NCBI GenBank assembly: GCA_003599795.1
Contig: QZJQ01000011.1
Span: forward strand, 1 to 49,030
Length of the DNA stretch: 49,030 nucleotides
Reading direction: 5' to 3'
Source of the DNA: Nitrospiraceae bacterium
Lineage (GTDB): Bacteria > Nitrospirota > Thermodesulfovibrionia > Thermodesulfovibrionales > UBA1546
Shown here: positions 28,646-36,666 of the stretch, piece by piece
Position numbering within the stretch: the stretch's first letter is position 1
Layout of the letters: each line of letters opens with the position of its first letter
Translations under genes and position numbers: made by a program
Notes under the pieces: generated by a model
Told to the model about the DNA's origin: nothing
The model's input: the letters and a program-made list of their open reading frames with translations, nothing else
Database searches by the model: none

Positions 28646-28698
28646 TGCTTAATGAGTTATACTATCAAGAATAATGAAAAAAGGGTTTGTTTGTCAAT

Positions 28699-30180
28699 AT
28701 GCTGTATCCTGACCTTAAAGAGTTTAAGTCTCTATGCGGAAAGGGAAATCTTATCCCTGTCTATAGGGAAATCCTTGCTGATTTTGACACTCCTGTCTCT
28801 GCATTTTTGAAGATCGGCAAAAGCCCTTCCTTCCTGCTTGAGAGTGTTGTCGGAGGAGAGAAATGGGCCAGATATTCCTTCCTCGGAACAAATCCGTCAA
28901 AGGTTATAAAAGGCAGGGGAAAGAAGATAGAGATAAAAGAAAAAGGCAAGAAAACGGTTGTGTTTGAAGCGGACGACCCTGTGGATGTGCTTAAAAAAGA
29001 GATAGCTCTTTACAAGCCTGTTGATGTCCACGGGCTTCCGAGATTTTCAGGCGGCTTGGTCGGATATATGGGATATGACATGGTCAGATTTTTTGAGCGT
29101 GTTCCTGACAGCAAAAAACCCGGCATGGACCTGCCTGATATGTTCTTTATGCTTGCTGACACAATGCTCATATTTGACAGCCTTAAGCAGAAGATAAAAA
29201 TTGTCTCTAACGTGCATGTAGGCGGAAAAAGCCCTGCTAAGGCGTATAAAGAGGCAGTGGAGAAGATAGATGCAATAACAAAAAAGTTGAAGAGTTCAAG
29301 GGTTCGAGGGGTCAAGGGGTCAAGGGGCAAAAATATAAAACAGAAATTCACTTCAAGCTTTAAGACTAAAGAGGCTTTTGAGGAGGCTGTGCTTAAGTCA
29401 AAAGAATATATTGCGGGAGGCGATATATTTCAGATTGTGCTCTCGCAGAGATTTGAGAGAAAATCAGGTGTTGACCCGTTTGATGTTTACCGCGCGCTGC
29501 GTGTGATTAATCCCTCTCCTTACATGTATTACATTGACACGGGAGACACAGAGATTGCCGGTTCATCTCCTGAGATACTTGTCAGGGTTGAGGATAAGAA
29601 AATTGTCCTGAGGCCCATTGCCGGAACAAGGAGAAGGGGTGAAACAGAGGCAGAGGATAGGGCTCTGGAAGAGGAGCTTAAAAAAGACCCGAAGGAAATG
29701 GCAGAGCATATAATGCTCGTGGACCTCGGAAGAAATGATGTAGGCAGGGTTGCCGAAAAAGGCTCTGTTAGTGTGACAGAATTAATGAGTGTTGAAAGAT
29801 ACAGCCATGTGATGCACATGGTGTCTAATGTTGAGGGAAATCTTGAGAAAGGCCTTGATGCATTTGATGTTCTTCGGGCGTGTTTTCCGGCAGGCACTGT
29901 TACAGGCGCTCCGAAGGTCCGGGCCATGGAGATTATAGATGAACTTGAGCCTATAAAGAGAGGGCCTTATGCCGGCTCTGTGGGATATTTCAGCTATTCG
30001 GGGAATATGGATACATGCATTACGATAAGAACGCTTATAATAAAAGACGGGAAGGTTTATGTTCAGGCTGGCGCGGGGATTGTTGCGGATTCAGTGCCTG
30101 AGAGGGAATACACTGAGACTGTTAATAAGGCAATGGGGATGATGAAGGCAGTGGAGATGGCTGAGAAGGGGCTGGGTTAA
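28699..30180 (+). CDS. trpE: anthranilate synthase component I
   Basis: 'FSGGLVGYMGYDMVRFFE', 'GGDIFQIVLSQRFE', 'GTRRRGETEAEDRALEEEL', 'FPAGTVTGAPKVRAMEIIDELEP'. Confidence 0.95.
   Translation: MLYPDLKEFKSLCGKGNLIPVYREILADFDTPVSAFLKIGKSPSFLLESVVGGEKWARYSFLGTNPSKVIKGRGKKIEIKEKGKKTVVFEADDPVDVLKKEIALYKPVDVHGLPRFSGGLVGYMGYDMVRFFERVPDSKKPGMDLPDMFFMLADTMLIFDSLKQKIKIVSNVHVGGKSPAKAYKEAVEKIDAITKKLKSSRVRGVKGSRGKNIKQKFTSSFKTKEAFEEAVLKSKEYIAGGDIFQIVLSQRFERKSGVDPFDVYRALRVINPSPYMYYIDTGDTEIAGSSPEILVRVEDKKIVLRPIAGTRRRGETEAEDRALEEELKKDPKEMAEHIMLVDLGRNDVGRVAEKGSVSVTELMSVERYSHVMHMVSNVEGNLEKGLDAFDVLRACFPAGTVTGAPKVRAMEIIDELEPIKRGPYAGSVGYFSYSGNMDTCITIRTLIIKDGKVYVQAGAGIVADSVPEREYTETVNKAMGMMKAVEMAEKGLG
29293..29330 (+). 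repeat. period-8 repeat inside trpE
   Basis: GTTCAAGG-GTTCGAGG-GGTCAAGG-GGTCAAGG-GGCAA. Confidence 0.85.
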
Positions 30181-30192
30181 GGTATGCATATT

Positions 30193-30328
30193 AAAGCAGG
30201 ATATAATATCTTCGCTCATTCTCGCCCTGACAAGTCGGGACTCCGAGGTATTTTGCCTCATAGTTATTCAGCAATTTACTGTAGGAATATCGGCAAAATA
30301 AAACCGCTAAAATATCATATCCTGCTTT
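30193..30328 (+). repeat. structured interspersed element, copy 1 (between trpE and trpG)
   Basis: 12-bp inverted ends AAAGCAGGATAT/ATATCCTGCTTT; shares blocks TTCGCTCATTCTCG, CTCCGAGG, GAATATCGGCAAAA, AAACCGCT with 35848-35972. Confidence 0.85.
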
Positions 30329-30344: not shown

Positions 30345-30914
30345 ATGCTTTTGATGATTGATAATTATGATTCCTTTACCTATAACCTCGTCCAGCATCT
30401 TGGAGAGCTTGGAGAGCATATAAAGGTTTTCAGGAATGACAAGGTTACGATAAAGGAGATTGAAGAATTAAAGCCGAAAAGCATTGTCATTTCTCCGGGG
30501 CCGTGCACTCCTAAAGAGGCAGGAGTTTCTGTTGATGTAATAAAATACTTTGCAGGCAGGATTCCTATTCTCGGAGTGTGTTTAGGGCATCAGGCAATCG
30601 GCGCTGCATTCGGCGGAGACATAATAAGGGCGTCGAGGCTCATGCATGGGAAAACGTCCATGATACATCACGACGGAAAAACCATATTTGAAGGGCTTCC
30701 GAATCCGTTTGAGGCAACGCGGTATCACTCGCTGATAATAAAGAAGGAAACTATGCCTTCCTGCCTTGAGATTACCGCGTGGACTGACCAGGATGAGGTG
30801 ATGGGAGTAAGGCATAAGGAATTTATTGTTGAAGGCGTGCAGTTTCATCCTGAGTCAATACTGACAAACGCCGGAAAAGACCTGCTGAGAAATTTTCTTA
30901 AACTGCACTATTAA
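30345..30914 (+). CDS. trpG: anthranilate/aminodeoxychorismate synthase glutamine amidotransferase
   Basis: '[22 protein letters not shown]', '[12 protein letters not shown]', '[12 protein letters not shown]', 'GVQFHPESI'. Confidence 0.95.
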
Positions 30915-34402: not shown

Positions 34403-35836
34403 TTATGTCACAGCAACGATTACATCTTTGATTACATTAAGCATCTGCTTAAGATTTTCAATGCTTATGCTTAGAGGCGGCATTATCACAATCACATTCC
34501 CGAGCGGCCTCAGCAAAACTCCGTTATCCCTTGCATGATATGCAGCTTTCCATCCAATTTTTTCTTCCCATGCGTAAGGCTCTTTTGTATTTTTATCTTT
34601 TACAAGCTCAACCCCTGCCATAAGCCCTTTGTTCCTCGCGTCTCCTACATGGGGAAGTTCCGATATTTCCTTAAGCCATCTTTCAAGCACTTCTATCTTT
34701 GGCTTGAGATTTTTCAGTGTTTCATCTTTCTCAAATATATCAAGGCAGGCAAGAGCTGCTGCGCACGCAAGCGGATTGCCTGTATAAGAATGGCCGTGAA
34801 AGAATGTTTTAAGCTCCTTGAATTCACCAAGGAACGCATTATAGATTTCATCTGTGGCGATTGTCACTGCCAGCGGCAGATAACCGCCTGTTATGCCTTT
34901 TGAAAGGCACATTATATCAGGCGTCACATCTTCATGCTCGCAGGCAAACATCTTTCCTGTTCTTCCGAACCCTGTTGCAACCTCATCCGCAATCATCAGG
35001 ACATTATATTTCGTGCATAAGTCGCGCACGCCTTTAAGATACCCCTGCGGATATACAACCATCCCTCCTGCCGCCTGAACCAACGGCTCAATAATCACTG
35101 CTGCTATTTCGTTTGAATGCTGCCTCAATATATTTTCCATCTCGCCAAGGCACGCCAAGGAGCATTCAGGACAGGTTTCCCCATGTTCGCATTTGTAACA
35201 ATATGGAGAAGGCGCGTTATACGTCTTGAATAAAAGCGGCCTGAATGTTTTATGGAAAATATCAATGCCGCCGACGCTTACAGCGCCGAGCGTGTCGCCA
35301 TGGTATGCATTTTTAAGGGAAAGGAAGCTATGTTTCCCCTCTACCCCTCTGTGAATCCAGTATTGAAACGACATCTTGAGCGCGATTTCAACAGAAGTTG
35401 AGCCGTTGTCAGAGTAGAAAACTTTACTAAGAACAACAGGGTTCGAGGTTTCAAGGGTTCGAGGTTTCAAGGGTTTTATTTTACTTGACCCCTTGACCCC
35501 TTGACCCCTTGACCCCTGAATTATGTTGATGAGTTTTTCTGCTAATTTAATCGCCGGCACATTGCTTGAGCCGAGGAGCGTTGAATGCGAAATCCTGTCT
35601 ATCTGCTCTTTGATTGCGTCATCAATCTCTTTTTTCTTGTGGCCGTGAATGTTGACCCACATTGATGATACAGCGTCCAGATACCACCTGCCGTAAACGT
35701 CTTTTATGAAACAATCCCTGCCTTCGGAAATGATAACCGGCTTTTCCTCAAGCCAGTCCTTCATCTGCGTGAATGGATGCCAGAGATATTTTTTATCTGA
35801 TTCTTCAAGACGCCTATTTTCGTCAGAGATGGTCAT
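34403..35836 (-). CDS. bioA: adenosylmethionine-8-amino-7-oxononanoate aminotransferase
   Basis: 'YLWHPFTQMKDW', 'DAVSSMWVNIHGHKKKEI', 'IADEVATGFGRTGKMFACEHEDVTPDIMCLSKGITGG'. Confidence 0.95.
   Translation of the reverse strand: MTISDENRRLEESDKKYLWHPFTQMKDWLEEKPVIISEGRDCFIKDVYGRWYLDAVSSMWVNIHGHKKKEIDDAIKEQIDRISHSTLLGSSNVPAIKLAEKLINIIQGSRGQGVKGSSKIKPLKPRTLETSNPVVLSKVFYSDNGSTSVEIALKMSFQYWIHRGVEGKHSFLSLKNAYHGDTLGAVSVGGIDIFHKTFRPLLFKTYNAPSPYCYKCEHGETCPECSLACLGEMENILRQHSNEIAAVIIEPLVQAAGGMVVYPQGYLKGVRDLCTKYNVLMIADEVATGFGRTGKMFACEHEDVTPDIMCLSKGITGGYLPLAVTIATDEIYNAFLGEFKELKTFFHGHSYTGNPLACAAALACLDIFEKDETLKNLKPKIEVLERWLKEISELPHVGDARNKGLMAGVELVKDKNTKEPYAWEEKIGWKAAYHARDNGVLLRPLGNVIVIMPPLSISIENLKQMLNVIKDVIVAVT
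35438..35520. repeat. paired, inverted period-8 repeat arrays inside bioA
   Basis: (GGTTCGAG/GTTTCAAG)x4 arm, TTTTATTTTA spacer, (CTTGACCC)x4 arm. Confidence 0.88.
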
Positions 35837-35847
35837 TTTATTAAAAC

Positions 35848-35972
35848 AGTCTGGATATAGTATTTAAGCGGTTTCTTTTGCCGATATTCATAGAGGTATT
35901 ATACAAAAATAAAGAGACAAAAGCCTCGGAGGGCTTTAGCCCGAGAATGAGCGAAAACACTATATCCAGACT
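35848..35972 (-). repeat. structured interspersed element, copy 2 (upstream of bioA)
   Basis: 13-bp perfect inverted ends AGTCTGGATATAG/CTATATCCAGACT; internal blocks shared with copy 1. Confidence 0.85.
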
Positions 35973-35988
35973 TGAACTTCTAAATATC

Positions 35989-36666
35989 TTATTTTTTCTT
36001 TGTGTCCTCTGGCAAAGCCATGTGCCTTATAATCTTGCCTTCAACAAGATAAACAACCATCTCCGCTATGTTTGTTGCATGGTCAGCAATCCTTTCTATG
36101 TACTTTGATACATACGTTATCTTCACGGCCCTGGAGACGGTCTTGGGATCCTGTATCATAAAAAATAAAAGCTCATTAAATACCTGCCAATTAAGGTTAT
36201 CAACAAGGTCATCACGCACAAGCACCTCGCGCGCCAAGGCTGAGTCCCTCTTTACAAATGCATCCAACGCATCCCTTACCATGCCCTGTGCTATTTCCGC
36301 CATGCGCGGGATATCAATATATGGTTTTAGCTGCGGCTCTTCGTTCAGCTCTAACGCTCTCTCGGATACATCAACGGCAAGATCGCCTATCCTCTCAAGG
36401 TCGGTTGTAATCTTCATGGCTGTTGTTATCAGCCTCAGGTCCCCTGCACGCGGCTGCCTCAGGGCAATCAGTCTTATGCATTCCTCATCTATCCCAACAT
36501 CAAGCGCATTTACCTGCGGGTCTTTGTCTATAACGTCCGCCCCGAGTTTTGAATTTCTTTCAACAAGTGATTTTATTGAGTCGCTTATTGCCTTTTCCAC
36601 CATTGAACCGAGTTTTAAGACCATTCCCTTTAAATCTGTCAGTTCTTTTTCAAATATAGTTGCCAT
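35989..36666 (-). CDS. phoU: phosphate transport system accessory protein PhoU
   Basis: PhoU repeats 'LRLITTAMKITTDLERIGDLAVDVSERAL', 'KYIERIADHATNIAEMVVYLVEG'. Confidence 0.95.
   Translation of the reverse strand: MATIFEKELTDLKGMVLKLGSMVEKAISDSIKSLVERNSKLGADVIDKDPQVNALDVGIDEECIRLIALRQPRAGDLRLITTAMKITTDLERIGDLAVDVSERALELNEEPQLKPYIDIPRMAEIAQGMVRDALDAFVKRDSALAREVLVRDDLVDNLNWQVFNELLFFMIQDPKTVSRAVKITYVSKYIERIADHATNIAEMVVYLVEGKIIRHMALPEDTKKK

Follow-up and report, generated by a model that had tools for sequence, protein, structure and literature searches.

REPINs are inverted doublets of REP sequences that are moved by RAYT transposases. REP and REPIN palindromes have one end tagged with GTAG or CGTC (PMC3733652), and REP copies adjoin the RAYT genes (PMC3116915). 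Correia elements are also transcribed, and RNase III cuts the transcripts at the element ends (PMC10969869). Inverted repeats are in addition subject to polymerase template switching, which homogenises the arms and inverts the spacer between them (PMC8604942, PMC8794818) and can thereby maintain stems (PMC8794818).

Here we describe a structured repeat with two copies in the window, the 49,030-nt stretch of DNA that was analysed. It represents an abundant and apparently undescribed repeat family from a widespread class of uncultured bacteria, in whose genomes it lies mostly in operon gaps. We think it probable that this is a new MITE/REPIN-like family of non-coding, non-autonomous, mobile structured repeats of ~125 bp, of which the complement strand folds as single-stranded DNA or RNA. 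The family is a natural test bed for distinguishing covariation that arises from selection on RNA structure from covariation that arises from template switching.

Two copies of a structured repeat in the window

Copy 1 of the repeat lies on the forward strand at 30193–30328, in the gap between trpE (28687–30180, +; TIGR00564) upstream and trpG (30345–30914, +; TIGR00566) downstream. Copy 2 lies on the reverse strand at 35848–35972, with phoU (35989–36666, −; TIGR02135) upstream and bioA (34403–35836, −; TIGR00508) downstream. They score 122.6 and 140.9 bits, respectively, against R1, a covariance model derived from five copies in the window's genome and one in a relative. The window contains no third copy. 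On the strand given, the folds of copies 1 and 2 have z-scores of −5.2 and −6.4 against dinucleotide shuffles; on the complement strand, which is the better-folding strand of copy 1, the values are −5.9 and −5.4. No shuffle folded as well as the copies (0/200). The first-pass annotation had placed both elements at these coordinates and strands and had listed sequence blocks shared in the same order, all of which we verified, with the one correction that GGATATA falls in a variable arm and is not a fixed motif.

The repeat appears not to belong to a described family. Comparison with Rfam, proposed in the first-pass annotation, gave no family above its curated threshold on 19 sources, and the matches below threshold were chance ones. 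Phage, plasmid and viral collections contained no match to the repeat, and no description of it was found in the literature searched. A trp or bio riboswitch or attenuator was rejected as an identity, since the neighbours of the repeat are unrelated genes (e.g., trpG, bioA and thiC/thiE/thiG) and not those of one pathway.

Architecture of the repeat

The repeat is modelled as a ~125-bp element in which an 18-bp terminal stem (P1) closes a three-way junction with two hairpins, P2 and P3. The consensus leads from P1 through a two-base internal loop and a two-base-pair step to the junction that carries P2 (CTCG, a variable hairpin and CTCCGAG) and P3 (TTTTGCC/GGCAAAA with a variable loop). The parts that stay fixed across copies are YTCGCTCATTCTCG, CTCCGAGG and A-A-W-CCGCTC. 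In copy 1, the 5' and 3' arms of P1 occupy 30193–30211 and 30310–30328 (both +), and the conserved YTCGCTCATTCTCG block at 30211–30224 (+) contains the junction bases TCATT, which do not vary in any of the 80 aligned copies. Bases 30214–30215 pair with 30306–30307 and covary with them, from GC/GC to AC/GT, and GG/CC in genome G032. P2 (30221–30247, +) consists of CTCG, a variable stem-loop, a bulge and CGAG, and P3 (30249–30300, +) pairs TATTTTGCC with GGCAAAATA around an A+T-rich loop; both hairpins covary in the 80 copies and in 50 further ones. The conserved AAACCGCT junction strand at 30301–30309 (+) completes the structure, and its CC is likewise invariant in 80/80 copies.

Pairing in P1 stops sharply at the terminal pair in the 80 copies. 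It is present in 91% at that pair and 62% one base outward, and is at the shuffled level from two bases outward. The repeat thus has fixed ends, although the sequence of those ends varies between copies. The ends read AGRCAGGA...TCCTGYCT, and flanking positions hold at most 0.5 bit. The hairpin stems are interchangeable, with 22 different stems each for P2 and P3 among the 80 copies; at the same site in G004, the TATTTTGCC/GGCAAAATA stem of copy 1 is swapped for TATCCCGAAAGCTTTCGGGATA.

Repeat length ranges from 80 to 195 bases with a median of 127. Two minimal copies, L021 (G000:C17:15813-15916) and L155:1702-1781, measure 104 and 80 bases, with P3 cut to a perfect hairpin or the P2 portion lost; they can help to delimit the smallest unit of the repeat. 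Other copies carry additional palindromes in the P3 loop, such as ACAACCCCC...GTTGT, which is present in G015 and absent from G011 at the same site. Palindromes like ACAACCCCCTTAAT...AAGGGGG...GTTGT are inserted at one and the same position in the P3 loop across different copies (L268, L253, L286, L081, L137, L139 and L140).

Distribution and copy number

The window's own genome (1.4 Mb, Thermodesulfovibrionales) has at least eight copies of the repeat, including one with its 5' half deleted. The search of related genomes with a covariance model, as proposed in the first-pass annotation, gave R1 matches in 86 out of 151 genomes from the order. A phylum-wide draw of 299 genomes searched with R1 gave 47 positives in the order and five in the class outside the order, with no matches outside the class. 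A 14-base block has up to 107 exact matches in one related genome of 2.8 Mb, compared with 0–2 for a control consisting of the reversed pattern. Relatives retrieved through bioA are Thermodesulfovibrionales/Nitrospirae metagenome genomes.

Copies may cluster and may combine with other repeats. Three successive copies are found at L388:3330-5169 (G010:C64), in the trpE–trpG gap, between trpG and a moeB/thiF-like gene, and past that gene; four copies lie within 4 kb around thiC, thiE and thiG at L216:13963-17756 (G011:C15). Many copies are nested in another palindrome (CCCGGATTATTCATAAA ... TTTATGAATTA), 10–20 bases from each end (L153, L133, L205, L219 and L388:4980-5220), and the outer palindrome can be read as part of a composite or as a preferred target. 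G015 also has another structured repeat, longer than the first (TTTTTCGACAGTTCT ... AGAACTGTTACCGAAAAATC, between arms that contain TTTCGCTT and CGCTCAA; L258, C148:1700-3200; L252, C52:7400-8900), which fills the same operon gaps in which G011 has the ~125-bp repeat. This longer repeat may be related to the ~125-bp family.

Covariation and change at orthologous sites

The first-pass annotation had noted that the two copies maintain the same pairing with different sequence, and this holds across the wider family. In 80 copies the covariation score is 0.371, compared with 0.122 ± 0.005 for shuffled and 0.056–0.082 for slid alignments. Paired cells amount to 91.4% (77.5% shuffled, 36–48% slid), and 32 of 35 pairs show double changes affecting both sides. 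A second set of 50 further copies gives 0.407 against 0.145 ± 0.007 shuffled. Both alignments had been fitted to the model. When P1 alone was counted from anchors without it, pairing was 87.5% between a copy's own outer arms and 66.8 ± 1.1% between dealt-out arms. Four pair types occur at several positions of the terminal arms, which keep their complementarity and not their sequence.

We sought the orthologous regions of 38 sites in relatives. Where a comparison could be made, sites hold whole or partial copies, are empty, or carry other insertions; empty sites were among the things that the first-pass annotation had suggested looking for. The presence and absence of copies at orthologous sites argue that the family is mobile. 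The trpE–trpG gap holds the repeat in G000, G001, G004 and G010, the last of another genus, and is empty in G002 (bare junction TAAGGTATG) and G007. Being common to two genera, this copy must be old and not recently mobile. Copy 2, next to bioA, has an ortholog in G007 (L157), whereas G001, G005 and G006 have an empty site. A remnant 5' arm persists at several "empty" sites (G005 and G006 at the C16 site), which indicates that deletion also causes loss. Candidate direct repeats of 5–11 bases, which might be target duplications, occur at four sites (TATGC, AAAAATGA, ATGGAA and GGAGGAGRGGA); they flank the insertions along with extra non-conserved bases and do not abut the ends.

Changes within retained copies raise the question of whether the fold is a mutational by-product, with template switching copying one arm from the other and flipping the core in the absence of any selection on structure. 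Several observations fit this explanation. At L286, one G.C pair is gone from both arms in G014 (GCAGATAT/ATATCTGC, compared with GCAGGATAT/ATATCCTGC in G011), and at trpE–trpG a double transversion from A-T to C-G spans the two arms in G001. At the L204 site the core of G015 and G014 runs opposite to that of G011 in the same place; at the L214_11266 site relatives carry an inverted element beside a remnant arm. These comparisons exclude L145, L293 and L257, where the arm matches were false, as well as the "inverted" mark of L157, which had not been turned to the site. Template switching is described as yielding just such homogenised arms and inverted spacers (PMC8604942, PMC8794818). Since the arms change together and the core flips in place, covariation alone proves no selection, and on these sequence comparisons the covariation of the family appears to be partly mutational. 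The first-pass annotation had read covariation as selection on structure, and that step does not stand by itself. What still speaks for selection on the fold is a strand bias, described below, together with the invariant junction. The by-product explanation predicts no A.C/G.T bias relative to element orientation, where 4:1 is observed, and it leaves unexplained the invariant unpaired junction bases (TCATT and CC) and the covarying two-base-pair step. We consider it rather unlikely.

The strand that probably folds

Wherever one strand has a G.U pair, its complement shows an A.C mismatch. Mismatches in P1 are strongly skewed, with 131 A.C and 36 G.T (p = 7e-14); counted per copy, 56 copies lean to A.C and nine to G.T. 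Given this A.C excess, the wobble-tolerant strand would be the complement of the strand described in the first-pass annotation, and this part of the evidence does point to selection on a fold, on the opposite strand. In 77 of 84 copies the complement also gives the more stable fold (mean −49.3 vs −42.7 kcal/mol). Together these sequence comparisons suggest that the complement is the fold-relevant strand. R1 was built on the strand opposite to the proposed folding strand and credits G.T, so its use leans against the A.C excess. The 50 copies of the second set, drawn in part from other bacterial families, behaved as predicted, with 105 A.C and 25 G.T (p = 7e-13).

Two mutational sources of the bias were rejected. 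A mutation bias of the host strand is ruled out by an excess in the same direction in both gene orientations, with A.C:G.T of 91:26 in ++ copies and 22:4 in -- copies of the first set; the -- copies of the second set (four copies, antisense context) give 7:6, so that support for orientation independence comes mainly from the first set. One-directional deamination is ruled out because the excess appears at A-T and at G-C consensus pairs alike and because unpaired bases show no G-to-A excess. The folding form would be single-stranded DNA or RNA, between which the G.T/A.C bias does not separate. More generally, A.C versus G.T bias is a simple readout that helps to separate selection from template switching and shows which strand folds.

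Operon context and polarity

Gene contexts were taken from a simple longest-ORF caller, without annotation. The repeat lies at a median of 13 bases from the upstream stop codon and 31 bases from the next start. In co-oriented gaps, 51 copies are sense and 14 antisense (p = 4.5e-6, orthologous duplicates removed), and the second set shows the same polarity (26 sense, four antisense). Co-oriented gaps as such are occupied no more often than expected from the genome baseline (65:11 vs 218:55, p = 0.32). The polarity may mean that the better-folding strand is selected against in mRNA, or that insertion itself is polar.

These contexts bear on a further explanation, that the repeat is a cis-acting mRNA element which is transcribed with its operon and folds between cistrons as a processing or stability signal, as in Correia/NEMIS and ERIC. 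Placement between the stop and next start of co-oriented genes, the sense bias, the retention of copy 1 at trpE–trpG in two genera and the RNase III cleavage of Correia transcript ends (PMC10969869) would all suit such a role. The favoured orientation, however, puts the poorer-folding strand, with its A.C mismatches, in the mRNA; co-oriented gaps are not enriched above baseline; and copies are freely absent at orthologous sites. We regard an mRNA element as improbable.

A conventional MITE, derived from an insertion sequence by deletion and mobilised by a DD(E/D) transposase that recognises its terminal inverted repeats, is highly improbable: fixed ends, terminal inverted repeats, a lack of coding capacity and presence/absence polymorphism agree with one, but the terminal repeats are conserved in complementarity only (four pair types at several positions), no constant target duplication was seen next to the ends, and the 400 kb scanned contained no relative of greater length, autonomous and with element halves around an ORF.

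A possible route of spread

We return to the mobile structured repeat as the preferred reading. Spread would proceed through a folded single-stranded form (DNA or RNA) of the complement strand, which an enzyme acting in trans would recognise by its shape and by the invariant junction bases. Following insertion, the element would sit between operon genes with its weaker-folding strand in the mRNA, and template switching would keep repairing its arms. A mobilising enzyme was not found: 30 Y1-transposase (Y1_Tnp) loci of the bacterial family hold no R1 match nearby, which speaks against a RAYT/IS200 association, and Y1_Tnp was not found in G001 and G009, though both have copies. A more specific version, which we offer tentatively as a possibility, is a mobile element recognised by shape, with a strand-specific three-way-junction intermediate of single-stranded DNA or RNA, an enzyme that mobilises it, interchangeable hairpin modules and arms that are free to vary as long as they pair. 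If the strand assignment is true, it points to mobilisation in which a single strand folds and no recognised transposase takes part.

Comparison with known repeats

The first-pass annotation had offered a MITE-like or REP-like mobile element or a structured RNA, and this was right as to class: the repeat is dispersed, gained and lost, and structured. The Correia/NEMIS, ERIC and RU elements (100–170 bp) resemble it in size, in their terminal inverted repeats and in being intergenic and often transcribed with operons. The ~125-bp repeat differs in that its ends are conserved as pairing only, in that no constant target duplication was seen at the compared sites, and in being confined to one class of Nitrospirota. 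MITEs share its short length, non-coding nature, terminal inverted repeats and many copies, but the ~125-bp repeat lacks terminal repeats that are conserved in sequence between copies. The small dispersed repeats (SDR) of cyanobacteria, as described by Elhai et al. in 2008, are reportedly also small structured repeats that nest in other repeats; the ~125-bp repeat is several times longer, and the likeness is drawn from description.

REPINs are alike in having many short, dispersed, non-coding intergenic copies, in the two inverted repeats around a spacer that can form a long hairpin in single-stranded DNA or mRNA, and in the occurrence of remnants and nested copies. Membership of the REP/REPIN group is rejected on two grounds, since the ~125-bp repeat has no GTAG/CGTC tag and, across the 30 Y1_Tnp loci, no RAYT neighbour. 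Unlike a REPIN, it has terminal arms that vary, a three-way junction with an invariant core, and a strand that can be identified as the one probably relevant to the fold.
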